The notes beneath the pieces were generated by a model. That model did no database searches, was not told where the DNA came from, and worked only from the letters and a program-made list of their open reading frames with translations. From a virus, in the IMG/VR virus record IMGVR_UViG_3300020213_000100, positions 1 to 27,340 of that record: a stretch of DNA of 27,340 nucleotides; one strand, given 5' to 3'. Shown in pieces: positions 1,022 through 16,773 of this stretch. Position 1 is the first letter of the stretch; the number at the start of each line of letters is the position of its first letter. A program made the position numbers and the translations under genes.

Positions 1022-1022
1022 A

Positions 1023-1213: not shown

Positions 1214-1214
1214 T

Positions 1215-1451
1215 TTGTCAAAAAAGGAAGAAACTTTGCTTGAAACAGTTAATCTAGATTTATCGTTAGAAATAGAATGCCAAAAAGTTATCGGATATTT
1301 TCCCACTAATCTAGGTTTAGCTATTAAATATCTTTGGAGAGTAGCAAACCCATATGCACGTAAATATCACTCTGTAGAGGAAAGAGTTCAGAACTTAAAT
1401 AAGGCAGTGAATTTTATAGAGTTTGAGATTGAATGTTTGAGGGAGGAATGA
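1215..1451 (+). CDS. Small protein resembling DUF3310-type phage proteins
   Basis: The 78-residue product starts at TTG 1215, with GGGAGG six bases upstream; no better start exists in this frame. The central segment (LAIKYLWRVA near residues 34-43) and the later NLNKAVNFIEFEIE helix resemble the core of the DUF3310 family of small phage proteins, in which an IKYLWR-like motif is followed by a DLxKAxWYL-like helix. The family has been loosely linked to nucleotide metabolism, with no established reaction. The stop overlaps the ATG of the primase-like gene (ATGA at 1448-1451), so the two are probably translationally coupled. Confidence 0.6.
   Translation: MSKKEETLLETVNLDLSLEIECQKVIGYFPTNLGLAIKYLWRVANPYARKYHSVEERVQNLNKAVNFIEFEIECLREE
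1435..1451 (+). repeat. 17-bp direct repeat over a translation start, copy 2
   Basis: It is identical to 1197-1213. Here the ATG (1448-1450) within the repeat is the likely start of the primase-like gene, and the TGA is the stop of the gene before it. GAGG at 1439-1442 gives a five-base spacing to that ATG. Confidence 0.8.
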
Positions 1452-2140
1452 AACCCTTAGCAACTATCAAGTGTCCTTACTGTAAAGGAGCTACTACTAC
1501 ACAGGATCGTAAAACTCTTTATCTCTACTCAACTGATACGTATTGGTGTGCTAGGTGTAAAGCTTTTGGAGTAATATCAGACATTGACCCATCACTTTTA
1601 TCTGGTATTACTCCAAAGGTTACTACTACTACAGAATTAGTAAAATTTGAATACAATAATACTGGTAAGCGCTTCTCTGTATGCAAAAATCGCTTTTATG
1701 ATGGCAGTAGAGATGTGTTTCAAATCAAACTCCCAGATGGGAGTTTAGTAGGACATTGCTACAGACTCCCAGATAAGAGAAGTAAAATTGAAGGAGTGAA
1801 AGGTCTCTGCTACAGAGAACAATTTCTTGATCTTTCACAGACGTATAGATTAGTAGAAGGGGTGTACGACTGTATTTATCCCAACGATATTGCCGTTCTT
1901 GGATACCCAAATGAGTTTCAAGCTAAACAATTAAAATGGTTCAATTTGATTCTTTGTCCAGATGGCGACGTTTGGCAAGATAAGCAAAAATTGATCCTGT
2001 GGCTTAAACCCTTTTGGTACTTCAAAAAAATAGTAGTGGAACATATACCCAACTCAAAAGACCCTGACGAGTGTTTAGAGCAAGATCGTACTAAAGTCAG
2101 TTTCAATATAATAAAGGATTGGTTAAACAAACAAACATGA
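1448..2140 (+). CDS. DnaG-like primase-type protein (zinc ribbon plus TOPRIM)
   Basis: Probably makes RNA primers for phage DNA replication. Counting from the ATG at 1448 (about 230 residues), a zinc ribbon is formed by CPYC at residues 9-12 and CARC about 25 residues later. A TOPRIM domain follows: LVEGVYD carries the conserved Glu, LCPDGDV carries the DxD pair, and SKDPDE the third acidic motif. It is much shorter than bacterial DnaG, with little room for the full RNA polymerase core and no helicase-binding domain, so it resembles compact phage primases. An in-frame ATG at 1433 is possible but has a weaker ribosome site. The DnaB-like helicase is encoded at 3205. Confidence 0.75.
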   Translation: MKPLATIKCPYCKGATTTQDRKTLYLYSTDTYWCARCKAFGVISDIDPSLLSGITPKVTTTTELVKFEYNNTGKRFSVCKNRFYDGSRDVFQIKLPDGSLVGHCYRLPDKRSKIEGVKGLCYREQFLDLSQTYRLVEGVYDCIYPNDIAVLGYPNEFQAKQLKWFNLILCPDGDVWQDKQKLILWLKPFWYFKKIVVEHIPNSKDPDECLEQDRTKVSFNIIKDWLNKQT

Positions 2141-2676
2141 CTACTTTTAACTTAGAAGCAGCTTTCGGAGATCTGGAATTAGAAACCCAACTAAAATCAG
2201 TTTTATATTACGTAAAAAAGGGACAAACTTTAGCTCTAGCAATGCTGCCTCCGATGGAATTTCAAGGTACGCCGAAACTGTCAATTTCTGTAGAATCTGA
2301 TTTTAATGGTAAAAAATTTCAACAACATATTGTACGTTTTGCGATGTTTGACTTTACTAGCGGCAAAGTCGATTATTCAAAAACTCAATTTGTTGGTATC
2401 CCACTAGCATCGACGTACATAACTCAACTAGTAAAGGCTTTTAAAGATGAATTCAAAGTAGCCACCCAAGATTTCAATTTAATTGAGCTTCAAAAAGCTG
2501 AAAAAACCCTGATCACTTTTAAGCCTAAAATTGTGAGAATGCCTGATGAGTTATGGGAAACTGGCAGCAAAGCCCCAACTTGGGATGAACTATTACAGGC
2601 GCATACTTCAATGCGAGAAAATATTGACAAAAAAAAGGATGGAGTAAAAACTGAAGCATCTACTCCCTGGGAATAG
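2137..2676 (+). CDS. Unknown protein in the replication operon, possible ssDNA-binding role
   Basis: The 179-residue protein is not recognised. The ATG at 2137 overlaps the previous stop (ATGA); a TTG at 2119 is in frame but less likely. The N-terminal two thirds appear mixed alpha/beta, with a conserved-looking segment FVGIPLASTYITQLVKAF. The C-terminal 30 residues are charged and probably disordered, ending in STPWE. A globular domain with a flexible tail ending in acidic and aromatic residues, placed between a primase and a resolvase, would fit a single-strand DNA-binding or recombination-mediator protein. That is inference from context only. A strong terminator follows. Confidence 0.6.
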   Translation: MTTFNLEAAFGDLELETQLKSVLYYVKKGQTLALAMLPPMEFQGTPKLSISVESDFNGKKFQQHIVRFAMFDFTSGKVDYSKTQFVGIPLASTYITQLVKAFKDEFKVATQDFNLIELQKAEKTLITFKPKIVRMPDELWETGSKAPTWDELLQAHTSMRENIDKKKDGVKTEASTPWE

Positions 2677-2691
2677 TATCTAGCTCAACTC

Positions 2692-2724
2692 AAAAGGAGG
2701 TGTAAAAACCTCCTTTTATTTTAT
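2692..2724 (+). terminator. Intrinsic terminator
   Basis: A perfect 10-bp stem, AAAAGGAGGT (2692-2701) with ACCTCCTTTT (2708-2717), has a six-base loop and is followed by ATTTTAT. It lies 16 bases after the stop of the 2137 gene. The genes downstream either rely on read-through or on a promoter I could not identify in 2725-2770. Confidence 0.85.
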
Positions 2725-2770
2725 CCTTAGTGACTTCTTTAAAAGAAGCCTTAAAAGAGTGGGGTATAAA

Positions 2771-3205
2771 ATGATAGGAATTGATTTAGCAACCACTAAC
2801 TGTGGTATTTGTTGGATGCAGAAAGACGAGGATTGTAAATTTGCAACAGTTGGTATGAAAGATTTAGAGAAAAAAACAATTCTTGCTTTTGCAAAGTCAC
2901 TTAGCATATTGACCTATGAACATGATGTAGTTGTAGATTTTTCTTTTGCAGAATGTTTTTTACCAAATAGACGAAAACATGTAGCAGTTAAATATTTTTT
3001 AGCAGGTTGTATCCAAAATTCAGCACGGAACACAGTATTTGTTACACCTTCTGAATTAAGGGAATTCTTAGGCTATTCAAAGAAGGTCTCTAAAAAAACA
3101 ATTCACCAACTACAGTTTAATCTTGAATGGTTGGAAAAATATACTGAGCATGAACTAGACGCCTATTTACTCGCTCTGTTAGGCACTATGCAAAAGGATC
3201 GATAA
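2771..3205 (+). CDS. RuvC-like Holliday junction resolvase
   Basis: This 144-residue RNase H-fold nuclease probably resolves branched DNA before packaging. The first strand IGIDLATTNCG carries the first catalytic Asp (residue 5). FSFAECF carries the Glu of the second motif, and the C-terminal ELDAYLLAL carries the last acidic pair on a helix, the usual RuvC order D-E-D/D. Its length is a little under bacterial RuvC (about 170). ATG 2771 is preferred over the in-frame GTG at 2759 because it places the catalytic strand at the N-terminus. An imperfect palindrome (2734-2748) lies upstream. The stop overlaps the helicase start (TAATG). Confidence 0.75.
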   Translation: MIGIDLATTNCGICWMQKDEDCKFATVGMKDLEKKTILAFAKSLSILTYEHDVVVDFSFAECFLPNRRKHVAVKYFLAGCIQNSARNTVFVTPSELREFLGYSKKVSKKTIHQLQFNLEWLEKYTEHELDAYLLALLGTMQKDR

Positions 3206-4257
3206 TGATGACTGAATCTCTCTTTTCTCTAGATGATATAAGCATTGCTTCTGACGTTGCTACAGCAGTAGACGACGTCTACAGTAGACTGGTTTTTCTA
3301 CTAGAAAGCATGAAATTAGAGTTACCAACATGGCTAAAATATAAATTGCCATTTGCAGAAAACTTAAGTAAGCCCCGGGTTCTTTGGTCTCCTCTGTTGT
3401 CAGCGGCATATCGTAAAGGGGAAATTTATGGTGAAGGATCAGTAGACGAGATCAGACAGTGTTTGGATAAGGTGCTTTCACCAGAATTGAAAACCTTTGA
3501 TGATCGAAAGAAATTTTGGGATTATGTAGGTTCGCTGGCAACTGGACTTTTTACTGAGAATGAAGAAGTCTACTTAGAAGAAGTAGTGGGTGGAGGGATG
3601 ATAGAAAAATTCAATTCCGGATTTGCTCCGTTTGATCAAGCGATTGGAGGTTTTTATCAATCAATTATAACTGTAGCAGGTACACCTGGATCGGGGAAAA
3701 CCAGTTTAATTCTTAGTCTGATGGGAGAATTGGTAAAGAATTTTCCGGTTTGGTATTTTCAAACAGAGATTCCAGCTAAAATAATTTATTCACGCATAAG
3801 CCAAATCAGACCTAAAAATATAGTTCCTGGTAGTAAGATCTTCTGTGGCAACTACTCATCAGAATCTATTTTGGAACGGGTTAAAAAAGAGCCAGATCAA
3901 AACAGAATTATTATTTATGACTCTCCAGAGGTAAAAACATCAGGAGTAGACCCCATACAATATTTTGAAAAAGTCTATCAAGATTTAGTTTCAATGAAGA
4001 TGGAATCGAGAGCGATAATTGTAACATCACAAACTAAGCAGGGGATTGGTTGGGAGGATTTAGGAGTTTACAGTTTATCGGACTCGGCAGCTAAGGCAAG
4101 ATACACAGATATAATTTTGTATCTAGGCAGAATTTTAGACACTGTTTTGGTTAAAACAGGAAAAAACCGATTTGGTCAGCTTGGTCAATCCATGACCAAA
4201 TATGATTATGCTAATTTAACTCTGGTAGATGATAAATTGGGAGATATGTTTGAGTAA
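3205..4257 (+). CDS. DnaB-like replicative helicase
   Basis: Probably a hexameric helicase that unwinds DNA at the phage fork. Residues 1-140 form an unfamiliar, mostly helical N-terminal domain. A RecA-type motor follows with Walker A GTPGSGKTS (residues 159-167), a Walker B-like strand (RIIIYDSPEV), a switch strand IIVTSQTKQG, and a C-terminal KNRFGQLGQ resembling the KNR(N/F)G finger segment of DnaB/KaiC-type ATPases. At 350 residues it is shorter than bacterial DnaB (about 450-470) because the N-terminal part is reduced. The ATG overlaps the RuvC stop and AAAAGGA lies just upstream. The primase-like protein encoded at 1448 is the likely partner. Confidence 0.8.
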   Translation: MMTESLFSLDDISIASDVATAVDDVYSRLVFLLESMKLELPTWLKYKLPFAENLSKPRVLWSPLLSAAYRKGEIYGEGSVDEIRQCLDKVLSPELKTFDDRKKFWDYVGSLATGLFTENEEVYLEEVVGGGMIEKFNSGFAPFDQAIGGFYQSIITVAGTPGSGKTSLILSLMGELVKNFPVWYFQTEIPAKIIYSRISQIRPKNIVPGSKIFCGNYSSESILERVKKEPDQNRIIIYDSPEVKTSGVDPIQYFEKVYQDLVSMKMESRAIIVTSQTKQGIGWEDLGVYSLSDSAAKARYTDIILYLGRILDTVLVKTGKNRFGQLGQSMTKYDYANLTLVDDKLGDMFE

Positions 4258-4268
4258 AGAGGTAGAAA

Positions 4269-6425
4269 ATGGAAAAATTGATTTTAAGCATTTATCCAAA
4301 GTCTAAACACCCAACGTATGAAATGATCAGTCTTCTTCTACCAGAAGAAAAAATCTCTGTAGGAGTATTGCGGGAAAGACTATTTAAGCTAGATTTGACT
4401 AATCTACTAGTTTTATGCCTTGATTCAGAAGTATCTAAACTTTTCAAAGAAGATTACGGGTTTAATGATCATGGAATCTATTTTGATGTTTATTACAACT
4501 CTGCATTTGATGAACAAGCCCATCTTTATGCAGAGAAAATAAAAAAACTAAAAACAAAACTTTCAAAGAAGTATAAACAAGAGACTGAATCGTCGCTAGA
4601 GCTAGAGGGGTTAAAACTGGTTAATCGGACTAGCCAATATGCCTTTACTCTTGTACCTCTTGAAAAAGCGAGTCAGAAACGTGACTACGAACGCTGGTTG
4701 AATTACGATGCTTTCGTTGACCCTGTTGTCAAATATCAAAAACAAGAAAGTGTAATAGTTACTCACACTTGTATTTTAGATATAGAGACTACAGGGTTAG
4801 ATTTTGAAGGTAATAGCATCACAATGATTGGTATAAAGCCTTTAGCAAGTATGCACCACCAGTGTATCTCTAATCCAACCGTAACCCAGATAAAAAACTT
4901 GTTAATTTATTTAGAAGGAAAAACAATTATTGGGCATAATCTAATCTTTGATCTTTCTTGGTTGATGTATGCATCTGGATCGACGTTTGTTCCAAATATA
5001 AATACAGTCGACACGCTGCTGTTAGCTCACGTAGCAGGGGAAAGACGACTAAGCCTTAAACATCTGTCAATGATGTATGGAAATTTTAAGGGTAGACGTA
5101 ATACTATGAATGCGGATGAAAATTATTTGTTGGAAGATCTTTTAGCTACGGAGCTTTTATATGAAAAATTCAAACACAAATTAGATACCTTCTCCGGTCA
5201 ATTGGTTTGTCAAGCCGTGAAGACTTTCTCAGAAGTAAAGGTAAATGGTATAGCTCTTGATAAAACCAGACTGTTTGAGATTAGAGACACGTACAAACAG
5301 TATGATACTCCAAAGTATGAATTTAATGTAGACAGTAACAGGGAATTGGCAGACTACTTAATAGCGCAAGGGGTTCCTTTGGTAGATAAAACTGAAAGAG
5401 GGGATTGGAAAGTAGATCAAAAAACTCTTGAGAATTTTAATAACCTACCAGTAGTATCAAAATATTTAGAGTATCAAAAGGAAGTTACTATTTATCAAAA
5501 GTTTATCAAGCCTTATTGTGAGTTACAGAATTTCATGATTAGACCTGATATTCGATTATCAGGTACAGAGACAGGCAGGCTTTCCTGTAACAATCCTAAT
5601 GTCCAACAGATACCAAATAGAAGTTTATTCAAAGATATTTTTAGATCAAGATTTGAAAGTGAAGGATTTATTGGGTCAATCGATCTAGATCAGGCAGAAT
5701 TAAGAATAGCTGCCTTGCTGGCAAATGATCAAATTTACGCTCAAGCTTTATTGTCTAATGACTTTCATAAACTCGTAGCGAGTAAATCCTTCGGCATAAC
5801 AGAGAAAGAAGTTACTAAAGCTCAAAGATTTGCAGCTAAAACGGTAAATTTTGGAGGTGTGTTATATGGAGGATCAGCGAAGGGGATAGCCTGGAGAATC
5901 AAGGTAGATACCTCCGTAGTACAGACCATTCAAGCTTGGTATAAAAAAGAATTTATTGGTCTTACTAACTGGATTGAAGGTGAAAAAGAACTAGCTGTAC
6001 AAACATCATACAGTCAAACTTATTTTGGTAGAGAACGGAGTCTAAGGGAGTTGAGATGGGATCAAAAACGTAGAATTGGAGTCAACACAGCAGTTCAATC
6101 CGTGGCTAGTGATGTAATGCTTTACATCGTCGTTAGACTCTCTGGGTTGATCAGAAAGAATAAGCTAAAGTCTAAGGTCATGTTTCCAGTTCATGATGAA
6201 CTATTGCTTGATATTCATAAATCAGAATTAGACAAAATTATAGAATTACTGAAACAAGCTTTTAAAGACGTGTTAAAGACCCCTTTAGGTAAACTAGGTT
6301 TAACAAACGTGTTACCTGTAAGCGGGTCTTTGGAGTGGGGTAAAAGTTGGTTATATGTCAAAAATGAAAAGTTTCCTAGTGACGGTTCTACCAAAATTAG
6401 TTCGCTAGAGGGTGTAAATGAATAA
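4269..6425 (+). CDS. polA: DNA polymerase, family A, with 3'-5' exonuclease domain
   Basis: The 718-residue replicative polymerase resembles PolA without its 5' nuclease, which is encoded separately at 7123. The N-terminal 160 residues are unassigned. The proofreading domain starts with LDIETTGL (Asp171, Glu173), continues with IIGHNLIFDL, and ends with an acidic helix near LLATELLYEKF. Polymerase motif A is SIDLDQAELRI near residue 468, motif B starts at Arg520 and Lys524 (RFAAKTVNFGGVLYGG), and motif C is VHDELLLD (His642-Glu644). Motif B is one residue longer than the usual family A spacing: eight residues, not seven, separate Lys524 from the Tyr-Gly pair. AAAGAGG upstream supports ATG 4269. 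The 3' end overlaps the methyltransferase gene by eight bases. Confidence 0.95.
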   Translation: MEKLILSIYPKSKHPTYEMISLLLPEEKISVGVLRERLFKLDLTNLLVLCLDSEVSKLFKEDYGFNDHGIYFDVYYNSAFDEQAHLYAEKIKKLKTKLSKKYKQETESSLELEGLKLVNRTSQYAFTLVPLEKASQKRDYERWLNYDAFVDPVVKYQKQESVIVTHTCILDIETTGLDFEGNSITMIGIKPLASMHHQCISNPTVTQIKNLLIYLEGKTIIGHNLIFDLSWLMYASGSTFVPNINTVDTLLLAHVAGERRLSLKHLSMMYGNFKGRRNTMNADENYLLEDLLATELLYEKFKHKLDTFSGQLVCQAVKTFSEVKVNGIALDKTRLFEIRDTYKQYDTPKYEFNVDSNRELADYLIAQGVPLVDKTERGDWKVDQKTLENFNNLPVVSKYLEYQKEVTIYQKFIKPYCELQNFMIRPDIRLSGTETGRLSCNNPNVQQIPNRSLFKDIFRSRFESEGFIGSIDLDQAELRIAALLANDQIYAQALLSNDFHKLVASKSFGITEKEVTKAQRFAAKTVNFGGVLYGGSAKGIAWRIKVDTSVVQTIQAWYKKEFIGLTNWIEGEKELAVQTSYSQTYFGRERSLRELRWDQKRRIGVNTAVQSVASDVMLYIVVRLSGLIRKNKLKSKVMFPVHDELLLDIHKSELDKIIELLKQAFKDVLKTPLGKLGLTNVLPVSGSLEWGKSWLYVKNEKFPSDGSTKISSLEGVNE

Positions 6426-6927
6426 TTCACAATTAATTAACCAAACATCAAATAAATATGAGTATTATACTCCCTCTTCGATAATAGAGGCAGCTAGATC
6501 AACGATGGGTAGTATTGACCTTGATCCGGCAAGTAGTGAAACCGCTAATCAGAGAGTAAAAGCATTGGCGTATTACTCATCAGAAGGTTTAGAAAAAACT
6601 TGGTACGGTAATATTTGGTTAAACCACCCCTTCTCTAGAGAAAATAATCCTTTATGGATCAGAAAATTACACTTGGGATATCATCTAGACCGCATTGAAC
6701 AAGCCTGCTGTCTTACTTATGCAGCAACTTCAGAAAACTGGTTTCAACCGCTCTTTAATTATGTACAATGTTGGTTGGCTCCAAGAACAAATTTTTACTT
6801 ACCCGATGGGACATTAAAAAAGGGAGTGACAAAGGGATCGGTGATAACTTACTTCGGTTCAGAAAACAAAAAATTTAGTTTTTACTTTTCTAAGCTGGGG
6901 TATATTACCCAACCATTAAGAAATTAA
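6418..6927 (+). CDS. Dam-type phage DNA N6-adenine methyltransferase-like protein
   Basis: The 169-residue protein resembles the phage DNA N6-adenine methyltransferase family (Dam, PF05869-like). YYTPSSIIEAAR is followed by SIDLDPASSETAN, corresponding to the SAM-binding DP motif, and by YYSSEGLEKTWYGNIWLNHPF. The last part aligns with the family's W-x-G-x-V-W-x-N-P-P-Y/F catalytic block. The catalytic tetrad reads N-H-P-F here, with His replacing the first Pro, so activity needs checking. Such enzymes methylate phage DNA to escape host restriction. The start lies inside the polymerase gene, giving an eight-base overlap. Confidence 0.7.
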   Translation: MNNSQLINQTSNKYEYYTPSSIIEAARSTMGSIDLDPASSETANQRVKALAYYSSEGLEKTWYGNIWLNHPFSRENNPLWIRKLHLGYHLDRIEQACCLTYAATSENWFQPLFNYVQCWLAPRTNFYLPDGTLKKGVTKGSVITYFGSENKKFSFYFSKLGYITQPLRN

Positions 6928-6930
6928 ATT

Positions 6931-7080
6931 ATGTCAATACATTTATGGTTTCTCTGTATCCTGGGTGTTAATTTATCTTTATTAGCAACTGTACTTATAT
7001 ATGGAGTGTGTGTTATGTCTGGAATAGAAGTACCACCAATGACAAATGAACCAAACCAAGTAGAAAGCAATAAAGAATAG
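6931..7080 (+). CDS. Small single-pass membrane protein (49 residues)
   Basis: This short frame fits the 195-base gap between methyltransferase and nuclease. Residues 4-28 are a continuous hydrophobic stretch (LWFLCILGVNLSLLATVLIY and onward), followed by a hydrophilic tail with PPMTNEPNQ. The ribosome site is weak (only AAGAAA upstream), so translation may depend on coupling with the methyltransferase gene, which stops three bases earlier. Function is unknown; a lysis-related or host-membrane role is possible. The membrane segment is visible, but expression is inferred. Confidence 0.45.
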   Translation: MSIHLWFLCILGVNLSLLATVLIYGVCVMSGIEVPPMTNEPNQVESNKE

Positions 7081-7092
7081 TTTGAGATTGCT

Positions 7093-7118
7093 TATAAGGA
7101 GCTTTTATAAGGAGCTTT
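7093..7118 (+). repeat. Tandem 13-bp duplication of a ribosome binding site
   Basis: TATAAGGAGCTTT occurs twice head to tail (7093-7105 and 7106-7118), followed by a third TATAA that runs into the start codon. Each unit carries AAGGAG. The second is eight bases from the ATG at 7123; the first is about 21 bases away and is too distant to initiate directly. Confidence 0.8.
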
Positions 7119-7122
7119 TATA

Positions 7123-7914
7123 ATGAGATTATGTGTAGACGGCGGTTATTTAACTTTTAAAATGTCCTTTGGAAACTTTGATCAATGGCAGCGTACCCAC
7201 GGAGAAAAAGTTTCTATCTTTGCTATAGATAATACACCTAAACGAAAAGAGGTTTACCCCGATTATAAAAAGGGGAGAAACACTGGTAAATCTGAAATTT
7301 TACAAGATGTATGGGCTTTGAGAGACCGGATCAATGAGGAGAAACAACTACCACTTTGTAGTATAGAAGGTTTGGAAGCAGACGATTTGGTAGCTTGTTG
7401 GGGCTTGTTTAATCCTGATCATCTCATTGTAGGGGTGGATAAGGATTTTTTTCAACTTCCTAATGTGGGTACTGTTTTGTACCATAACCTGCAACCCTAT
7501 GGAAAGAATGCAGCTATCGAAAAGTTACCAGTGTATTTGCAAGAGTTGGCTAGAGATAATTTTGCTCTTTATCAAATGCTTTTAGGAGATATAGCTGATA
7601 ACATACCTCGGTTGTTGAGTAAAGGTAAAGAGGGAAAAAATCAAATAGAATTTTTAAAAAATGCAACAGATCACGGTCATTTAGCAGAGAGTCTACAAGA
7701 TTTATTTGATGACCAAATAATTACCAATGCAAAGTTAGTTTTAATTCCATATTATGAATATTGTCAAGCAGAGGATTGGTTTGTCGATTGGTGTTTCGGG
7801 AATTACTATAATCCTAAGCATTGGTCAACGTTGTATCAGCAGATGATTGATTGTCTGTTACCCAATACGACAGGTAATGAAAAAGCAGTATGGGATTTGT
7901 TTAGTTTGAATTAA
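7123..7914 (+). CDS. 5'-3' exonuclease / flap endonuclease
   Basis: The 263-residue PIN/FEN-fold nuclease would remove RNA primers and flaps, supplying the activity missing from the phage polymerase. Metal-binding motifs are in family order: VDGGYL at the N-terminus, YPDYKKGR (the typical Tyr-Pro-x-Tyr-Lys segment), LEADDLVAC near residue 84, GVDKDFFQL near 105, and LLGDIADNIPR near 154, the Gly-Asp-x-x-Asp-Asn-Ile-Pro signature of the helix-turn-helix clamp. The C-terminal 90 residues are not typical. ATG 7123 has a duplicated AAGGAG upstream. A terminator follows 16 bases after the stop and ends the replication unit. Confidence 0.88.
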   Translation: MRLCVDGGYLTFKMSFGNFDQWQRTHGEKVSIFAIDNTPKRKEVYPDYKKGRNTGKSEILQDVWALRDRINEEKQLPLCSIEGLEADDLVACWGLFNPDHLIVGVDKDFFQLPNVGTVLYHNLQPYGKNAAIEKLPVYLQELARDNFALYQMLLGDIADNIPRLLSKGKEGKNQIEFLKNATDHGHLAESLQDLFDDQIITNAKLVLIPYYEYCQAEDWFVDWCFGNYYNPKHWSTLYQQMIDCLLPNTTGNEKAVWDLFSLN

Positions 7915-7930
7915 GGTTGAATACTGGTAT

Positions 7931-7960
7931 AAAAGTCTACTTTTTTAAGTAGACTTTTTT
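7931..7960 (+). terminator. Intrinsic terminator at the end of the replication unit
   Basis: A 12-bp perfect stem, AAAAGTCTACTT (7931-7942) with AAGTAGACTTTT (7947-7958), has a TTTT loop and a T run. It is followed 14 bases later by a consensus promoter, so this is a sharp transcription-unit boundary. Confidence 0.88.
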
Positions 7961-7974
7961 CAAAAAGAAACATA

Positions 7975-8003
7975 TTGACAAGCATCGATATCTCGTGTAT
8001 AAT
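7975..8003 (+). promoter_or_regulatory. Consensus sigma70 promoter for the packaging/head unit
   Basis: TTGACA (7975-7980) and TATAAT (7998-8003) both match consensus exactly with a 17-base spacer. It is the strongest promoter in the window and sits right after a terminator, 20 bases before the ATG at 8024. Recognition by the host housekeeping polymerase would not need a phage sigma factor. Confidence 0.9.
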
Positions 8004-8023
8004 TAACATATAGAGAAAGACTA

Positions 8024-8251
8024 ATGAACCAAGAATATTGTTACCAATGTGGATATCTTAAGGGTATTTTTTCTTTTCATAGATTCAATTTTACAATTGA
8101 AAGATATGCAGGTTACGAACATAACAAAATTTGTAATCATTGTGCAAAGATAAATGAATACTCTTTCAAAAGAGTAGAAAAAATCCTTGCAGGAATTTCG
8201 ATACCCTACTACGAAACTCCAGTAACCAAATACAAAATTCAACAAATCTGA
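8024..8251 (+). CDS. Small zinc-ribbon-like protein
   Basis: The 75-residue protein is the first gene after the strongest promoter. CYQC (Cys6, Cys9) and CNHC (Cys37, Cys40) can form a four-cysteine zinc site with a 27-residue aromatic insert. The C-terminal part is basic. AGAGAAAGA upstream supports ATG 8024. Function is unknown. Small zinc ribbons in such leader positions can be transcription or nuclease regulators, but nothing in the sequence decides this. An overlapping reverse-strand frame of similar length has no such support. Confidence 0.6.
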   Translation: MNQEYCYQCGYLKGIFSFHRFNFTIERYAGYEHNKICNHCAKINEYSFKRVEKILAGISIPYYETPVTKYKIQQI

Positions 8252-8289
8252 TCCTAACATTGCTGTTTCTAGTTTCTTAAGTTTGGTGC

Positions 8290-8916
8290 TTGTTGGAAAT
8301 AACCTATGTAAATTTTTTCCTAATTTTCCTCATTTTAGTTTTCTTAGTCTATATTAATAATGAACAAGTTAGACTAAGAAAACTCCTTCCGTTTGATAAT
8401 TCTAGGCAATCCTTAAAGCGTATGAAAATTTTGTCTGTAGTAGCAGGACACGATTTGGATATGCAAGAAATTGAAAAGTCTCTTTATTCCACTGATATTA
8501 GTTACAATCTTCTCAGTTATCAAGCTGTATCCCAACAGTCACTCTTAGCAGAACTCGAAAAAGACGTTACAGTATTTGAGTTGTCTAGTCATGGATTGAA
8601 TGGTGCTTTTCGACTAGGTAATGCGAGTATACCGATTTCCTGGCTTTCTACTGCCTTAAAACAAACTAAAGGTTTGGATTGTGCTTTATTACTTTATTGC
8701 AATTCTTATATCGATCAGGAAGTAATCGCAGCTTCAAAAATTTTTGTGATTAGCATGATTGGGGATGTAAAAGACACTACTTGTGTCGTTTTTTCTAGGA
8801 ACTTCTATTTTTATCTCAACAAAAAATTCACTTATACAGAAGCTTTTGAGAGATCAAGGTTACAACTTCCTGTTGAAGATTTCCCAAAGTTTATTTACAA
8901 AGATGGAAAACTATAA
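8290..8916 (+). CDS. Membrane-anchored caspase/CHAT-like cysteine protease
   Basis: Residues 6-22 form a transmembrane helix (YVNFFLIFLILVFLVYI), so the rest is probably a tethered domain. From residue 46 the protein follows the caspase-like CHAT pattern: strand KILSVVAGHD, then strand VFELSSHG with the candidate catalytic His101, then LDCALLLYCNSY with the candidate nucleophile Cys137. The typical end is IFVISMIGDVKDTTCVVFS, then NFYFYLNKKFTYTEAFERSR, matching the CHAT signature of an FY..L helix and an EAF..AR-like helix. Start is TTG 8290 or TTG 8293 with a poor ribosome site; a stop at 8278 rules out a longer form, and ATG 8422 would remove the membrane helix. The stop overlaps the small terminase start (TAATG), so it is in the late operon. 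No TPR or other partner domain is attached. Substrate is unknown. Confidence 0.72.
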   Translation: MLEITYVNFFLIFLILVFLVYINNEQVRLRKLLPFDNSRQSLKRMKILSVVAGHDLDMQEIEKSLYSTDISYNLLSYQAVSQQSLLAELEKDVTVFELSSHGLNGAFRLGNASIPISWLSTALKQTKGLDCALLLYCNSYIDQEVIAASKIFVISMIGDVKDTTCVVFSRNFYFYLNKKFTYTEAFERSRLQLPVEDFPKFIYKDGKL

Positions 8917-9443
8917 TGCTAGTTGACGCCCTGTCTGAAAAACATCAAAGATTTGTAAGAACCTATATAGAGTGCCTGCATCAGGGTAGAGCTTATAAAG
9001 CGGCTTTTCCTCATGTCATGATCGAAACTGCTAGGACTGAAGGTTGCAAACTCGCTAATCAAACAGAGGTAAAAGCGGCAATTTATGAGCTATTAAAAGC
9101 GTATATACCTGCTAAAGAGGAAACACTACAACGAATTATAAAGATCGTCGAGTTCGACTTAGGTCAATACTTTATAGGTGACATTCTGCAATTGGATCAG
9201 TTGATAGAAAATGGTTATGGTTGGATGGTCAAAGGTGTAAAGCAGACTAAATTTGGCACAGAAGTAGTGTTGATGGATAAGGATACTGCATTAAATAACT
9301 TAGCTAAAATTCAAACTTTATTCAACGATACACAGCAAATTACTATTAACATTGGGCAAGAAATATCCGCCAAAGATCAATTAACCAAAAAACTACAAGA
9401 TTTGGACGATAAATTTGCTTCTAGTGGTGTAAATGTCAAATGA
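8916..9443 (+). CDS. terS: Terminase small subunit
   Basis: This 175-residue DNA-recognition subunit of the packaging motor begins with the typical LSEKHQRFVRTYIECLHQGR segment and an Ala-rich helix-turn-helix (residues 7-65), as in the Terminase_2 family. A central part, IVEFDLGQYFIGD, and a C-terminal coiled segment (KDQLTKKLQDLDDK) for oligomerisation and motor contact follow. It overlaps the caspase-like gene by one base and the large subunit gene by 11 bases, the usual small-large pairing. Confidence 0.82.
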   Translation: MLVDALSEKHQRFVRTYIECLHQGRAYKAAFPHVMIETARTEGCKLANQTEVKAAIYELLKAYIPAKEETLQRIIKIVEFDLGQYFIGDILQLDQLIENGYGWMVKGVKQTKFGTEVVLMDKDTALNNLAKIQTLFNDTQQITINIGQEISAKDQLTKKLQDLDDKFASSGVNVK

Positions 9444-10752
9444 CTTCAGTAGGCTAGAAAAACTAGCTCTGTTGTCTGCTAAGGATCGTAATGACTACCT
9501 CATTAATTTTACAGAGGAAGAAGTAGCAAGATTACTTGAATCTTACGAATTTAAAGCAAGACCAAAACAGTTATTTCCAAAAGGCGACTGGCGTACTTGG
9601 TTGCTTCTTTCAGGTAGAGGCTTTGGCAAGAGTTTTGTCGGTAGTAATTTTGTCATTAATCAAGCACAAACTCAAAATTACCCAATAGCGTTGATTGGTG
9701 CTAACGCTGCTGATGTTCGTGATTATATGATTGAACTTGGTGAATCCTCCATTGTAAAGCAATCTCCAAAATGGTTTACTCCTGATTATCAACCCTCTAA
9801 ACGTAGGTTAGTATTTCCTAATGGTGTAATTGCTGTCGCTTTTTCTGCTGATAATCCTGATCAACTCCGAGGTTTTAACGGCAATTCTGCTTGGATAGAT
9901 GAACTGGCAAAGTATCAGTATCCAAATGAAGTTTGGGATAACTTGAATTTTTCTTTGAGAGTTGGGAATACTCCAAAGGTAATTATCACTACCACCCCTA
10001 GACCATTAAAACTAATTAAAGAGTTGTGGGCTGATCCTCTAGTTAAAAAAACTGTTGGTTCTACTCTCGAAAACAGAAGTAATTTAGCCTCTCCCTTCAT
10101 TGACTACATTTACAAAAAATATTCGGGTACACGATTAGGGAGACAGGAGCTCGAGGGTGAAATTCTAATGGATACACCTGGCGCTTTGTGGACTTACCAA
10201 AATCTTGACCAAAATAGAGTATCCAAAGCTCCCATACTAAAACAAATTGTTATTGCGATTGATCCAGCTATCACAGCAGACGAGGATTCTAATGAAACTG
10301 GTATCATTGTTAGTGGAATCGATGAGCTTGATCATGGATTTGTGTTAGAGGATGCCTCTGGGATTTATCATCCTAATGAGTGGGCGACTGAAGCGATTAA
10401 ATTGTATGAAAAGTATAAAGCTTCTTACATCATTGCAGAGGTCAATCAGGGTGGAGATCTAGTTACAAACAATATTCAACAAGTAGCTAAGTCTCTGGGT
10501 AAATCTTTCATACCCTGTAAAAAAGTTCATGCTTCTAAAGGTAAGTTCACTCGGGCTGAACCTGTGGCTGCTTTGTATGAACAGCATCGAATTAGTCATG
10601 TTGGAGTTTTTCCAGAGTTAGAAGACTCAATGTGTACCTTTTTACAGGGTGACAAGCTATCCCCTGATCGTATGGATGCTTTAGTTTGGGGCTTTTATTT
10701 CCTGCTAGTTAAACAAACAGAGACACATATATCAGATGAAGACTTTTGGTAA
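9433..10752 (+). CDS. terL: Terminase large subunit (ATPase and nuclease)
   Basis: The 439-residue motor cuts concatemeric DNA and drives it into the prohead. The ATPase domain has Walker A SGRGFGKS (residues 60-67), the segment DNPDQLRGF, Walker B AWIDELA (Asp156, catalytic Glu157), and the coupling strand VIITTTPRPL. The RNase H-like nuclease domain has IAIDPAIT (first Asp, near residue 278), IIAEVNQGGD and the last acidic motif DRMDALVWG near the C-terminus. Length and order are standard for T4 gp17/Terminase_6-type proteins. It starts inside the small subunit gene. Packaging mode (cos or headful) cannot be told from this alone. Confidence 0.93.
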   Translation: MSNDFSRLEKLALLSAKDRNDYLINFTEEEVARLLESYEFKARPKQLFPKGDWRTWLLLSGRGFGKSFVGSNFVINQAQTQNYPIALIGANAADVRDYMIELGESSIVKQSPKWFTPDYQPSKRRLVFPNGVIAVAFSADNPDQLRGFNGNSAWIDELAKYQYPNEVWDNLNFSLRVGNTPKVIITTTPRPLKLIKELWADPLVKKTVGSTLENRSNLASPFIDYIYKKYSGTRLGRQELEGEILMDTPGALWTYQNLDQNRVSKAPILKQIVIAIDPAITADEDSNETGIIVSGIDELDHGFVLEDASGIYHPNEWATEAIKLYEKYKASYIIAEVNQGGDLVTNNIQQVAKSLGKSFIPCKKVHASKGKFTRAEPVAALYEQHRISHVGVFPELEDSMCTFLQGDKLSPDRMDALVWGFYFLLVKQTETHISDEDFW

Positions 10753-10810
10753 AGAAACTTTATCCTACTTTTTAGGAGATGCTTTTGCACCTTCAGGAAT
10801 GATTCAATAA

Positions 10811-12121
10811 ATGCATCTAAACGATTATGCACATTTACAAACTCTGACAGAGAGTCAACGTCATCAATTAAAGCATATTCAGATGCTTTGGTCGTATTAT
10901 CGAGGAGACTTTAAGAAATGGTTACTACCAAAACTCCTACCCAATGGCAATACCATTAATGATAATGTTCAACTTGCCTTGAGTAGAAAAATTGTGCATA
11001 AAGGTAACTATTTTTTATTTGGCAAGGGATTGAATTGGCAACTAAGTAAAAAAAATGCTGTTACAGAAGAAAAAGTTCTTAGTCAAATTTGGGGTAATCA
11101 GGAAACACAAAATGCTTTTCTAAGCGAACTTGGTATCAATGGAGGTGTAACAGGGAATTATTATATACAAATTGTATCAAACCAAAAAGGTACAAGAGTG
11201 AAGAATCTTGACCCTACTTGGGTATTTGTTACTCCTGACCCAAATGATCAAGATGAAGCTTTAGAATATGATTTACGATTTATGGTTAAAGATGAACTCT
11301 TTAGAATCCTTCATAAAAACTTAGGTAATGGCACATGGGATTACTCAAAAGAGAAGTATACCAAAGCACGTTGGGAATATGTAGAAAAACCTGTCATCTG
11401 GCCTTTTGAATGGCCTTTCATTGTATCAGGTAAAAATCTTCCCAATCCAAATTCGTTCTATGGTGCTAGCGACTTAATTGATGCAGAAATTAATGACACG
11501 ATTAATTTAGTCGCATCAAATCTAAACAGAATTATTCGGATATTTGCCCATCCGGTTATATGGGGTTATGGATTTGGTTCATCTGCTTTGACAGTAGATT
11601 CAAGTAAGATAATTACTTCTACCTCTGAATCAGCTAAACTAGAGGCGCTTGAGTTGGCTAGAGATTTGTCTAGTCCACAAGAGTACCTAAAATTTCTCAG
11701 AACAATGTTTAGTGAGGTAACTAATGTTCCTGAATCAGACCCGGATCGTTTAGCCATTGGTGCCCAAAGTGGCTTTGCGTTAGAAGTTTTGTTTAATGAC
11801 CTAATTCTTAAAACAGGAACTAAGAGAAATTTTTACGGTAAGGGCTTAATAGAGCTTAATAGGCGCTTGTTGGAGTTATCAGGTTTTGGAGAAGACAACC
11901 AAACGCAACTTCTATGGCCTAATGCTCTACCTACTGATAAGCAAAGTGAGACTACCTCAGATCAATTTGAATTAGCCTCTGGTTTAGTCTCAAAGAGAAC
12001 TTTAGCAATCAAACGTGGGTATGACTTTGATCAAGAGCTTGAATATATGCAAAAAGAGCAAGCTAATCAAGGAACACTCGGAGAAGCCTTGATTACTGCG
12101 TTTAGAAATGGGCAAGGTTGA
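10811..12121 (+). CDS. Portal protein (SPP1 gp6-like)
   Basis: The 436-residue protein should form the dodecameric ring at the capsid vertex. N-terminal LWSYYRGDFKKWLLPK and KIVHKGNYFLFGKGLNW are typical of SPP1 gp6-family portals. Later come a wing region (LDPTWVFVTPDPND), WPFIVSGKNLPNPNSFYGASDL, INDTINLVASNLNRII and a long helical stem with SGFALEVLFNDLI. The C-terminus is a charged helical crown. It directly follows the large terminase. The 58-base gap holds no gene, but a three-codon frame (ATG 10799) ends at the base just before ATG 10811, which may assist coupling. Confidence 0.88.
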   Translation: MHLNDYAHLQTLTESQRHQLKHIQMLWSYYRGDFKKWLLPKLLPNGNTINDNVQLALSRKIVHKGNYFLFGKGLNWQLSKKNAVTEEKVLSQIWGNQETQNAFLSELGINGGVTGNYYIQIVSNQKGTRVKNLDPTWVFVTPDPNDQDEALEYDLRFMVKDELFRILHKNLGNGTWDYSKEKYTKARWEYVEKPVIWPFEWPFIVSGKNLPNPNSFYGASDLIDAEINDTINLVASNLNRIIRIFAHPVIWGYGFGSSALTVDSSKIITSTSESAKLEALELARDLSSPQEYLKFLRTMFSEVTNVPESDPDRLAIGAQSGFALEVLFNDLILKTGTKRNFYGKGLIELNRRLLELSGFGEDNQTQLLWPNALPTDKQSETTSDQFELASGLVSKRTLAIKRGYDFDQELEYMQKEQANQGTLGEALITAFRNGQG

Positions 12122-12205
12122 TTTCTTAGCTTAAAAAACACCTCTAATTTCCTCTTAAAATATTCTCAAGGTACAAATGTATCAAATAGTTGTAATTACT
12201 TAACC

Positions 12206-12233
12206 TTGAAATTATTTCTTCTAACCGTATAAA
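12206..12233 (+). promoter_or_regulatory. Promoter-like site before the MuF-like gene, with overlapping inverted repeat
   Basis: TTGAAA (12206-12211) and TATAAA (12228-12233) are separated by 16 bases, 28 bases upstream of the start at 12261. TCAAGGT (12166-12172) and ACCTTGA (12203-12209) form an inverted repeat whose right arm overlaps the -35 box. It lies in a 139-base gap within the late genes. Confidence 0.45.
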
Positions 12234-12260
12234 AATACACTGGAATGTCAGCACTAAATT

Positions 12261-13313
12261 ATGCCAACAGTAATTGAAACAGCTAATAGATTCAAGAATG
12301 AATTACTAAGGCATGAGACAAATTCGACTAATCAAATGCTTGGAGCTTACAAACTAGTCACTAATAGACTAGAAGATAAGCTGTCAGGATTAATGTCACA
12401 GATTGAAGCTTTAGAAGCTCAAGGCACATTGACTCCTAATAATATTAAAAACTTAGCTGTTTGGCCTAGCTTATTAAACCAACTACAAGATGAAGTGACA
12501 AAATTTGGTGGTTTCGTCGATACACATAACACACTAGCTGCTAACAAATCTATTGATCTGGCAAGTAACCATAGTCAATTATTGACGGCTGTTAACTTTC
12601 AAGATAAACCTGACCTAACAAAAGCTTTTAATGCTACATGGGACAAATTATCTACAGAGGCAATCCAAACTTTACTAGGTTTCCTTCAACCAGATTCACA
12701 ACTTCACACAAACCTTACCTCTACACTTGGTTCGTCTGCTACTGAAAACTTTGTCAACAAACTCTTAGAAGGTATTGCACTTGGGTATAACCCTAGAAAA
12801 ATCAATGCTCTGATTAACCAGACATTGGGTGAACCTTTAACTTGGTCTCTCAATACTGTCAGAACTACGCAGTTATATTCCTATAGAGAAGCGACTAGAG
12901 CTAATTACATAGCTAATTCAGAAATTATTGGGGGCTGGAGGTGGTACGCCGCATTAGATGGTCGGGTATGCTTATCATGTGTAAATAAACATGGTTCAAT
13001 ACACTCAATAGAGGAAGGTTTAAACGATCATCATTCTGGCAGATGTACACAAATTCCACTGGTTAAAAACGCTAAACAATTTGGCTTAACTGACCCAGAA
13101 ATTGAGATAGGTGAAGATTGGTTTAATCGTTTGCCAGAAACCCAACAAGTACAGAGAATGGGTGAAGCTAAATACACTGCTTATAAAGCAGGTGAATTCA
13201 GATTTGATGATTTATCAGAAGAATACCAAAATGATACTTTTGGATTAATGATAAAAGAGGCTAGTTTGCTGGGTATTTTAGGAGATAGAGCAGAGAGGTA
13301 TTATAGCAGATGA
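12261..13313 (+). CDS. Head morphogenesis protein (MuF / SPP1 gp7-like)
   Basis: The 350-residue protein is a minor head protein found after the portal gene and thought to ride in the capsid and help DNA ejection. Residues 1-180 are helical. The MuF core is seen from SLNTVRTTQLYSYREATR (about 193) through GWRWYAALDGRVCLSCVNKHG to DHHSGRCTQIPLV, where Cys, Cys, His and Cys form the usual metal-binding set. The C-terminus (EDWFNRLPETQQVQRMG, KYTAYKAGEF) is typical of the family. No toxin domain is fused. The stop overlaps the lipoprotein start (ATGA). Confidence 0.85.
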   Translation: MPTVIETANRFKNELLRHETNSTNQMLGAYKLVTNRLEDKLSGLMSQIEALEAQGTLTPNNIKNLAVWPSLLNQLQDEVTKFGGFVDTHNTLAANKSIDLASNHSQLLTAVNFQDKPDLTKAFNATWDKLSTEAIQTLLGFLQPDSQLHTNLTSTLGSSATENFVNKLLEGIALGYNPRKINALINQTLGEPLTWSLNTVRTTQLYSYREATRANYIANSEIIGGWRWYAALDGRVCLSCVNKHGSIHSIEEGLNDHHSGRCTQIPLVKNAKQFGLTDPEIEIGEDWFNRLPETQQVQRMGEAKYTAYKAGEFRFDDLSEEYQNDTFGLMIKEASLLGILGDRAERYYSR

Positions 13314-13450
13314 AAATTATTTTTGTCGTACTACTAATTCTTGTATTAACAGCTTGTGTAGAACCAAAACAAAGATTTCAGAGACCAAAAAACAATATTT
13401 ATACTACTCAGAGTTTTGAATGTGGAGGAGTTAATGGAAAAATTACATGA
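13310..13450 (+). CDS. Small predicted lipoprotein (46 residues)
   Basis: The ATG at 13310 overlaps the MuF-like stop (ATGA), with AGAGG at 13294-13298. The peptide has a Lys-led hydrophobic signal (MKIIFVVLLILVLTAC) ending in a good lipobox, L-T-A-C, with the modified Cys at residue 16. The mature part would be only 31 residues, basic at first (EPKQRFQRPKNN), with one more Cys at residue 38. Small phage lipoproteins of known function (T5 Llp, TP-J34 Ltp) block receptors or DNA entry of later phages, and spanins use lipoproteins too. Either is only an analogy here. The 3' end overlaps the next gene by 17 bases. Confidence 0.6.
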   Translation: MKIIFVVLLILVLTACVEPKQRFQRPKNNIYTTQSFECGGVNGKIT

Positions 13451-13643
13451 AAGTAAATGGAATGAACAGGATCAGTGTTTTAGATTAGTCCACCCTAACA
13501 CAGGGGATTTTATTGCAGAATACTACCCCAACTCAAATCAATTGGTCGTAACCAAGCATCGACAGACAGCCATCATTGATTTAGATTTATACAAAGGTTT
13601 GCAATGGACGCAATTACAGAACAAACAGTTTTTACCTCAATAG
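13434..13643 (+). CDS. Small protein of unknown function (69 residues)
   Basis: ATG 13434 is chosen because GGAGGAG lies at 13424-13430; an in-frame TTG at 13416 would lie upstream of that site. The product is soluble and beta-rich, with pattern RLVHPNTGDFIAEYYPNS and QLVVTKHRQTAIIDLDLY, as in a small beta-sheet fold. It is not recognised. It sits between the MuF-like and scaffold genes, where phages often carry variable small genes. Confidence 0.6.
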   Translation: MEKLHESKWNEQDQCFRLVHPNTGDFIAEYYPNSNQLVVTKHRQTAIIDLDLYKGLQWTQLQNKQFLPQ

Positions 13644-13852
13644 ACAAACGACCTATACTAATGACATATCCTCTGCTACGTAAGACTTTAGTACCTTACT
13701 GTAAAGGTAAAACGCACTTACTACATGGGATATTAGACCTTTGGCAAGTGGGTGTTCCACAACCTCAAACCCACAATGGACAAATAGTAAAGATGCTTTA
13801 TCCAAACATGTTCGTTGAGTTTGCTAGATTGTGCATGAAGGAGAATGGATAA
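13604..13852 (+). CDS. Small protein of unknown function (82 residues)
   Basis: It starts inside the previous gene (40-base overlap) with AAAGG seven bases upstream. An internal ATG at 13661 is an alternative but lacks a ribosome site. The sequence is mixed, with YPLLRKTLVPYCKGKTHLLHGILDLWQVG and two cysteines, no signal peptide and no clear motif. Function is unknown. It ends at the start of the scaffold gene. Confidence 0.55.
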   Translation: MDAITEQTVFTSIDKRPILMTYPLLRKTLVPYCKGKTHLLHGILDLWQVGVPQPQTHNGQIVKMLYPNMFVEFARLCMKENG

Positions 13853-13853
13853 C

Positions 13854-14399
13854 ATGGAACTCGAAACTACTGAAACTGAGTCAGAAACCACAAATACAGG
13901 TGATACTTCTACCGAAATTGAAGGTAATGGTACTTTTACTCAAGATCAGGTAAACAAAATTGTAATAAAACGTGTAAAAGAAGTTAAAGCACAATTTAAA
14001 GACTATAAGAGTTTGCAGGATACAGTAACAACTTTGACCGCTCAAGTAGAGGCACTAACAGCAGAAAAAGACACTGTCAAGAAACAATATCTTGATACAG
14101 CTTTTTCTAGTCTACTTGATTCAACCGCTATGAACTTAAATCTTGATCCTGAATTAGCTTTGAAATTGTTGGATAAAGACAAACTCATTTTTGTTGAAGA
14201 TAAACCAACAAATCTAAAAGAGCTACTGCACGCAGTGATTGAAAAGCATCCTAGTCTTGTTAAAAAAGTTGTTATTACTCCTGTTATTCCGTCTGTAACT
14301 CTAACAGAAGGTGAAAAAAACTTCTCACTACACAAAACATCAAAAAGTAACTTTTTCTCTGGTGGTGGTTTAAAAGCTGCTACTCTTATTTCTAAATGA
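13854..14399 (+). CDS. Capsid scaffolding protein (gp20/DUF4355-like)
   Basis: The protein of about 181 residues would guide capsid assembly and then leave the shell. The first 25 residues are Glu/Thr-rich and acidic. They are followed by the characteristic FTQDQVNKIVIKRVKEVK segment of phage gp20/DUF4355 scaffolds and a coiled coil to about residue 80 (TVTTLTAQVEALTAEKDTVKK). The C-terminal part ends in a basic, Ser-rich tail suitable for binding the capsid shell. ATG 13845 is in frame, but the GGAG at 13840-13843 abuts it, so ATG 13854 with a 10-base gap is preferred. It lies directly before the capsid gene. Confidence 0.8.
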   Translation: MELETTETESETTNTGDTSTEIEGNGTFTQDQVNKIVIKRVKEVKAQFKDYKSLQDTVTTLTAQVEALTAEKDTVKKQYLDTAFSSLLDSTAMNLNLDPELALKLLDKDKLIFVEDKPTNLKELLHAVIEKHPSLVKKVVITPVIPSVTLTEGEKNFSLHKTSKSNFFSGGGLKAATLISK

Positions 14400-14411
14400 A
14401 GGTAATTTAAA

Positions 14412-15266
14412 ATGGCTATCACTAAATCTACTGATCTTAATAGTTTGTTTTCGGATATTTATGAACGGGCAATCTTTGTAGCTCGTGAAATGAACCTGAT
14501 GGTACAACTGGTTAGTAACTACAGCGCTAACAACTTTTACACCCGCCATCTTAAGACACGACCTCAGTTATCTGCTGAAGCTGTTACAGAAGGCGTGGAC
14601 TACAACAATGCTCAGACATTTGGTTTGACAGAAGTTGGCACGTTGACTCCAGGTGAAAAAATGGTTCAGGTTGTGTTGACTGATATCGATGTTATGAATG
14701 ATCCCGATGGGGCTATGCAGGATGCATCACAGGAGATGGGTGCAAGTATTGCTACTAAGATTGATACTGATCTAGTAGGTTTGTTCTCTAGCTTTTCCAC
14801 AGATAAAGGTACAGGGGCTGGTAATGCTGCTACTCTAGCTTCTGTAGCAGCAGGGGTTAGTTTGCTGCGTACTCGCTTTGCAACTCAAGATGGACAAATC
14901 AACGTCGTGTTGCATCCGTATCATTGGCATGATATTTGGGTATTGTTAGGTCAACCGGCTAGTAATCAAGCACTGTTGGGTGAAGTTGCTAATGCAGCTT
15001 TACGTGACTATTTTGTAGGTAACTGGCTAGGGGTGACTTGGTATACTTCTGCAAACATTAGTGTTGATGCAAGTGATGATGCTATTTCAGGTATTTTTAC
15101 GCAATCTGCTTTGGCCTTCGATTCAAGAATTGCTCCAACAATGGAGCCTGAACGGGATGCGTCATTACGGGCATGGGAACTTAATATGATTGCCGGTTAT
15201 GCGTATGGTTTAGGCAAACGACCAACTTATGGTGTCAAATATACCGCAGATGCGGCCACTCCGTAA
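14412..15266 (+). CDS. Major capsid protein (HK97 fold)
   Basis: The 284-residue shell protein follows the scaffold gene by 12 bases. Its length and sequence fit a short HK97-fold protein of the T7-independent, P22/SPP1-like size class: an N-terminal arm (MNLMVQLVSNYSANNFYTRH), strand LTPGEKMVQVVLTDIDVMND, spine helix DASQEMGASIATKIDTDLVGLF, then VVLHPYHWHDIWVLLG, NWLGVTWYTSANISVD and the A-domain end AWELNMIAGYAYGLGKRPTYGVKY. The last portion is characteristic. No N-terminal propeptide of the HK97 delta-domain type is present, so cleavage is not required. GAAGG upstream supports the ATG. Confidence 0.88.
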   Translation: MAITKSTDLNSLFSDIYERAIFVAREMNLMVQLVSNYSANNFYTRHLKTRPQLSAEAVTEGVDYNNAQTFGLTEVGTLTPGEKMVQVVLTDIDVMNDPDGAMQDASQEMGASIATKIDTDLVGLFSSFSTDKGTGAGNAATLASVAAGVSLLRTRFATQDGQINVVLHPYHWHDIWVLLGQPASNQALLGEVANAALRDYFVGNWLGVTWYTSANISVDASDDAISGIFTQSALAFDSRIAPTMEPERDASLRAWELNMIAGYAYGLGKRPTYGVKYTADAATP

Positions 15267-15322
15267 TGCCTTTTTCAAACGTTAATAAAGGAGGTTTAGA
15301 TCTTTCATAAAGGATTTTATAC

Positions 15323-15706
15323 ATGTTCGGTTCTTATCAACTTCAAACTCTTTTAATTCCTCTTAACTATGATCCTGCTGCGGATGATGATATTTTTCTC
15401 TTCAAAGCTTCTAAGACACTCAAAATTGATTCTGCTTCGGTTACTCTGAATAATGCTTTAGCAGGCGGCACAGCAAACTACTTTGATGTAGCTTTATACA
15501 ATGGTGGTACTGCCGGAACTGGTGTAACAGCTATTGGTGGAACAATTGGTGGAACAATTGGTTGGTCTGCCTTGACTCCTAAGGACTTTACAATCTCCAA
15601 TGGCACAGTAACAGCTAATCAAGTGGTGTATCTTCGCTATAATGAAGAAGGCACTGGCACGTTTACTGCCGGTGTGGTTCAGATAAATTATCGTATTGGT
15701 CAATAA
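15323..15706 (+). CDS. Probable head decoration protein
   Basis: The 127-residue, Gly/Thr/Ala-rich, beta-predicted protein comes right after the major capsid gene. Its place and size are typical of a capsid cement or decoration protein. No family is recognised. The middle holds the short repeat IGGTIGGTIG, encoded by a 12-bp tandem duplication. AAAGGA at 15309-15314 supports ATG 15323. A much stronger AAAGGAGGT (15288-15296) further up has no start codon at a useful distance. Confidence 0.55.
   Translation: MFGSYQLQTLLIPLNYDPAADDDIFLFKASKTLKIDSASVTLNNALAGGTANYFDVALYNGGTAGTGVTAIGGTIGGTIGWSALTPKDFTISNGTVTANQVVYLRYNEEGTGTFTAGVVQINYRIGQ
15533..15562 (+). repeat. 12-bp tandem repeat in the decoration gene
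   Basis: ATTGGTGGAACA occurs twice followed by a partial third copy, coding for IGGT units. Being a multiple of three, it can expand or contract without breaking the frame. Confidence 0.85.
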
Positions 15707-15756
15707 TTGTTTTACTAGTCTAAAAAACTAACCAAAAAACAAGTCAAAAAAGTTAA

Positions 15757-15785
15757 TTGATACAATAGTATCAAATTAGTAAAAT
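15757..15785 (+). promoter_or_regulatory. Promoter-like site with an operator-like palindrome
   Basis: TTGATA (15757-15762) and TAAAAT (15780-15785) have a 17-base spacer. TTGATAC and GTATCAA form a perfect 7-bp inverted repeat (15757-15774) around AATA, covering the -35 box. It lies in the gap between the decoration and connector genes, which start at 15838. Confidence 0.5.
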
Positions 15786-15837
15786 CGTTGAACTTTGCCA
15801 TTCTCTGTTGTTCACGCCTGTAACTCAAGGAATAAAA

Positions 15838-16762: not shown

Positions 16763-16773
16763 AAAGGATCAAA

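Follow-up and report, generated by a model that had tools for sequence, protein, structure and literature searches.

CHAT proteases function in the immunity and death of bacterial cells, as exemplified by Craspase, SAVED-CHAT, and the proposed activation of gasdermin. The prohead proteases of tailed phages, such as HK97 gp4 and T4 gp21, are serine proteases of other folds that are soluble and packaged in the prohead, and such dedicated proteases carry out head maturation in HK97-type and T4-type phages. Among the CHAT proteases, TPR-CHAT was reported to possess a catalytic dyad, H585/C627, whose members are 42 residues apart, and to cut Csx30 (PMC9729208), while SAVED-CHAT acts via a proteolytic cascade (PMC11229360). 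In the openly licensed literature, no account of a phage CHAT protease encoded next to terminase was found.

The window analyzed here is the whole of the IMG/VR record IMGVR_UViG_3300020213_000100, a stretch of 27340 bases with a G+C content of 36.5% from a tailed phage. A sequence-only reading had proposed that its ORF at 8290-8916 encodes a membrane-anchored caspase/CHAT-like protein beside the terminase genes. In this study, the ORF was assessed by profile comparison, fold prediction, and comparison with a sister phage.

Primary structure of the CHAT protein

The CHAT gene (8290..8916, + strand) starts with TTG and encodes 208 amino acids, and its assignment as a membrane-anchored minimal CHAT protein is based on profile, reciprocal profile, fold, and synteny. 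Hydropathy analysis revealed one N-terminal transmembrane segment at residues 4-22 (8299..8355, + strand), the best 19-residue window beginning at residue 4 with a Kyte-Doolittle mean of 2.64. In good agreement with this, the single-sequence AF2 model was helical over residues 2-32, with a mean pLDDT of 86-94 for the first 20 residues, and the N-terminal membrane helix of the sequence-only reading was hence borne out. Since the helix is followed by positively charged residues (RLRK), the positive-inside rule suggests that the catalytic domain lies on the cytosolic side.

The proposed His-Cys dyad was likewise recovered. The predicted catalytic His101 (codon 8590..8592, + strand) and Cys137 (codon 8698..8700, + strand), which are 36 residues apart, were invariant in the alignment with ten plasmid-encoded CHAT domains that served as the reference set, and correspond to H585 and C627 of TPR-CHAT. 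They stand in motifs of the S-x-H-G and C-x-S type, with the dyad after successive core strands. A Pfam search identified no additional domain within the 208 amino acids, namely no sensor or repeat such as SAVED or TPR, in keeping with the minimal architecture claimed beforehand.

Assignment to the CHAT family

Single-sequence searches with the CHAT protein returned nothing significant in Pfam, PHROGs, PADLOC, NCBIfam, PDB, INPHARED, IMG/VR, or GTDB contigs, and we therefore built our own CHAT profiles. The Pfam profile that had been suggested as a check, PF12770 (CHAT), which matched seven of the nine members of our CHAT alignment (A8), gave no match to the window protein at E ≤ 10, its curated cut-off not being passed. 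Our CHAT-only HMM picked the window ORF from 6838 ORFs at E = 4.2e-7. In hhalign against the CHAT set, the window protein was aligned with a Prob of 93.4 and a score of 50.2, with His101 and Cys137 paired with the catalytic His and Cys of the CHATs, respectively; the Prob was 93-96 across runs with our own profiles. As controls, 60 shuffled sequences scored at most 19.2, and 21 other ORFs of the window at most 22.5. In the reciprocal direction, an HMM built from only the two phage proteins (the window protein and the sister homolog described below) retrieved 21 CHAT ORFs (4e-7 down to 1.4) ahead of the first non-CHAT, a count that includes near-identical contigs, so that the independent CHATs are fewer.

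The predicted fold pointed in the same direction. The AF2 model of residues 43-208 built with nine CHAT-related sequences (pLDDT 81.7, pTM 0.81) covers the CHAT domain core, residues 45-208 (8422..8913, + strand), and displayed a caspase/CHAT fold. In a Foldseek comparison with solved structures, SAVED-CHAT (8tl0) was the best match (E 2.3e-9), followed by Csx29/TPR-CHAT (8eey, E 1.2e-4), caspase-6, and legumain, with gingipain and separase ranked lower; because the input alignment contained CHATs, this result is supporting and not fully independent evidence. No confident match to an unrelated fold appeared. The single-sequence AF2 model was poor except for the helix (pLDDT 44) and was left out of the fold assignment. 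Judged by our own profiles and the predicted fold, on which the family claim rests, the window protein is a CHAT member, as the sequence-only reading had recognized, and a very divergent one.

The possibility that the ORF is a chance frame or an unrelated membrane protein merely resembling CHAT, to which the silence of Pfam, NCBIfam, PADLOC, and PHROGs toward the single sequence might point, was rejected as hardly credible in view of the two-way profile evidence with shuffled and in-genome controls, the fold matches to CHAT/caspase proteins, and a sister homolog with 60% identity that keeps the helix and the dyad and is under purifying selection.

Conservation in a sister phage

When GTDB contigs were scanned with profile guidance, this sister gene was identified on L104 (RXKI01000043.1), a contig binned into a Neisseriaceae MAG; the host link is MAG binning only, and two long stretches of MAG contigs that were checked had a G+C content of 33-34%, compatible with the 36% of the phage. 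The sister contig L108 (13.8 kb) and the window share a collinear run of 15 genes that begins with the exonuclease and ends at the first glycosyltransferase, and in both phages the CHAT gene is located between a small Cys-pair gene and the gene for the terminase small subunit (TerS). The homolog sought beside terminase was thus found, with both dyad residues conserved and none of the loss of His or Cys that would have spoken against the reading. Conservation was uneven along the protein: residues 86-120 around His101 are 83% identical between the two phages, and the anchor region 40%. The TTG start of the window gene is supported by the sister gene, in which an ATG start also leads into the transmembrane helix. 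The sister protein (L104 2067-2663) is extended at its C-terminus by about 35 residues, and the extension overlaps a short ORF (2570-2770) before TerS.

The pN/pS ratio of the CHAT gene was 0.38, compared with 0.37 for the portal and 0.36 for the MCP gene, the ratios being rough with synonymous sites near saturation. By this sequence measure, the CHAT gene is under purifying selection resembling that of the portal and capsid genes. Because it is collinear and under such selection, while other genes differ between the sister phages, the comparison indicates that it is an inherited, stable part of the phage lineage, and a recent cargo gene was rejected for the sister pair. Among the genes that differ, a PAPS-reductase-like gene after the exonuclease (L104 736-1473) is absent from the window, and another, located behind that for the capsid protein (L108 reverse complement 9412-10128), which may be a homing endonuclease, occurs in the sister only.

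Gene context and expression signals

The window carries genes for an endonuclease VII-like protein, a RuvC-like resolvase, a DnaB-like helicase, DNA polymerase, Dam, and a 5'-3' exonuclease, followed by terminase, portal, MuF-like, scaffold, and capsid genes, a glycosyltransferase/radical-SAM block, and neck and tail genes; a frame running off the window end resembles a tape measure. The terminase large subunit (TerL; 9433..10752, + strand; Pfam Terminase_6N 1e-26, 6C 7e-12) was at most about 47% identical to any phage record compared, the corresponding value for the retrieved IMG/VR contigs being 52%. The glycosyltransferase-like genes and the radical-SAM gene between the capsid and neck genes (16774-21936) represent unusual cargo within a head-tail region, and the first genes of the block are kept in the sister phage with 54% and 71% identity.

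After the exonuclease gene, a terminator-like hairpin (7931..7958, + strand) comprising a 12-bp stem and then a T-run was identified (folding z-score -3.9), and the sister phage has an equivalent at the matching place (z -3.6). It is followed by a sigma-70-type promoter, TTGACA-17-TATAAT (7975..8003, + strand), the only 12/12 match in bases 1-20000; its position and the spacer motif ATCGATAT are conserved in the sister phage, with weaker hexamers and partial conservation of the stretch overall. The CHAT gene is the second in the unit downstream of this promoter, and its stop overlaps the start of TerS (8916..9443, + strand; Pfam Terminase_2 1.6e-11, phrog_51 8e-20) in the window as TAATG, a short ORF intervening in the sister phage. 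As sequence signals, the overlap and the upstream consensus promoter support the linkage of the CHAT gene to the terminase operon, as had been proposed.

Directly upstream of the CHAT gene in both phages lies the gene for a small protein with two Cys pairs (zinc-ribbon-like; 8024..8251, + strand), which is 40% identical to the sister's, with all four Cys kept and a strongly conserved C-terminal IPYYETP..KYKI. This small protein is possibly a partner, regulator, or substrate of the CHAT protein.

Distribution of CHATs in phages

No CHAT was detected in the stretches around TerL of 80 TerL-related phages, in 50 whole records in a scan without a positive control, or in 41 in a run that detected three positive controls. 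Further close kin of the two phage CHATs were found neither in IMG/VR nor in the family (23 genomes) or order (399 genomes) of the MAG, and the known members of the subfamily here are two. Scans of IMG/VR for CHATs in general, which used short patterns that miss divergent members, revealed only a few CHAT-bearing contig types (L098, L099-L101, L102, L103, and L113), whose CHATs are larger and in some cases have coiled-coil or WD40 regions. The CHAT gene lies beside tail and amidase genes on L098 (7554-8585), on the strand opposite the tail/head genes on L103 (7992-8936), and downstream of a portal gene on L113 (6834-8570); from these settings, the three look like accessory cargo and candidate phage-borne defence. 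In INPHARED, the sole match to a self-written CHAT consensus was MT836801 (L007), an unverified 8.7-kb record, which was set aside and not counted as a phage CHAT because its 849-residue open frame resembles a bacterial protein.

Proposed function and alternatives

We propose that the window gene encodes a minimal, enzymatically competent CHAT cysteine protease that would be made from the same unit as terminase and held at the host inner membrane by its single N-terminal helix, the catalytic domain facing the cytosol. As the protein has no sensor or repeat domain, its regulation would depend on the time of expression, membrane crowding/dimerization, or a partner, for which the product of the adjacent upstream Cys-pair gene may be a candidate, and not on a second messenger or guide RNA. 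As the target, we envisage a host protein of the inner membrane or its vicinity, either an anti-phage/cell-death component or a lysis-timing factor, whose cleavage would benefit the phage. For such an active, membrane-tethered, cytosol-facing protease cutting a host protein to the advantage of the phage, whose activity, topology, timing, and target we infer, the balance appears even, and this is the most economical of the readings considered. The broader statement, that a phage lineage has inherited a membrane-tethered caspase-like protease in its packaging operon and uses it on the host, i.e., on immune or lysis regulators, is put forward tentatively, at slightly short of an even chance. The CHAT family offers no usable sequence signature that predicts substrates. 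As a point against the host-directed reading, the location of the gene amid those for packaging would also be compatible with a role in the virion.

Superinfection exclusion, in which the protease would act like an abortive-infection gene carried by the phage and equip the infected cell to withstand other phages, was considered rather unlikely. The accessory settings of the CHATs on L098, L103, and L113, beside tail, lysis, or portal genes, are in line with such an anti-competitor role, and a membrane anchor would suit the sensing of entry; nevertheless, the window gene is collinear and old in its lineage instead of being variable cargo, and its product lacks a sensor domain. Moreover, the replication-module content suggests that the window phage is lytic, the absence of an integrase not being judgeable on a fragment.

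A prohead or virion maturation protease, cleaving the scaffold, capsid, or MuF-like protein in head assembly, was judged unlikely. Its appeal lies in the gene's position after the exonuclease and ahead of both terminase, whose TerS it overlaps, and the head genes, in a conservation as strong as that of the head genes, and in the lack of any convincing other protease among them. The earlier remark to this last effect held overall, with one qualification: the MuF-like head protein (12261-13313) gave a weak hit (8.6e-7) to a PHROG that carries the label head maturation protease, probably via the common MuF domain. Meanwhile, both phages keep the N-terminal membrane helix, a separate scaffold gene (13845-14399) is present as in phages that release the scaffold without cleavage, the head region examined in the related phage Mae-JY09 contains neither an annotated protease nor a CHAT, and the TerL-related phages were without CHAT in our scans. 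Moreover, CHATs are not known to serve as prohead proteases. Among the three roles envisaged in the sequence-only reading, namely control of host death or lysis timing, cleavage of a host defence protein, and virion processing, the last is the least likely because of the membrane anchor, the separate scaffold gene, and the head region of Mae-JY09.

Counter-defence decoys are common in phages, and a catalytically silent CHAT-fold protein that binds the CHAT/caspase-like immune proteases of the host, or the substrates of these, and blocks them would be compatible with the divergent sequence. In contrast to what is expected of a dead enzyme, His101, Cys137, and the neighborhood of the His show the highest conservation in the protein, and the associated MAG has no PF12770 match, a weak point as the MAG is incomplete; a decoy was hence regarded as quite improbable.

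If the host-directed reading is true, a bacterial cell-death protease fold has been turned by viruses to their own ends, and a minimal membrane-anchored CHAT conserved in a phage packaging operon would be this fold used by the other side. The substrate could reveal a new counter-defence, a new way of controlling lysis, or a new mode of head processing.

Comparison with known systems

Like the prohead proteases HK97 gp4 and T4 gp21, the window protein is a phage protease candidate encoded near terminase/portal genes, but it showed no Pfam or PHROG match to a known prohead protease family, and a CHAT/caspase fold is predicted instead. The best structural match, the cA3-activated SAVED-CHAT of type III CRISPR/CBASS, which was also the one solved structure that the CHAT alignment matched by sequence (2.2e-26), is alike in the CHAT fold and the His/Cys dyad; it differs in being bacterial, in its SAVED cyclic-nucleotide sensor, in place of which the phage protein has a membrane helix, and in forming filaments, the identity being 13-15%. 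TPR-CHAT/Csx29 of Craspase (type III-E CRISPR) shares the fold and the dyad, with the longer of the two spacings, and differs in its large TPR regulatory domain, RNA-guided activation, and role in bacterial immunity. Neither a sensor or repeat domain nor a CRISPR/CBASS context was found for the phage protein, which belongs instead to a phage packaging operon.

The coiled-coil-CHAT proteins of bacterial plasmids and prophages (for example, Shewanella L009/L106, L098, and L099) are the closest BLAST relatives outside the sister, with 22-24% identity and similar domain limits; they have an N-terminal coiled coil and not a membrane helix, and are accessory or defence-like cargo not located beside terminase. 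Finally, two viral proteins without a functional name in BFVD, A0A1P8DJ94 and A0A8S5MXG5 (Myoviridae sp. ctWaE18), have the same predicted fold (E 4e-7 and 4e-6), and differ in length (264 and 320 amino acids) with 17% and 12% identity. These matches indicate that other unannotated viral CHAT-fold proteins exist; with curated family models missing phage CHATs, their number in phages is probably underestimated.
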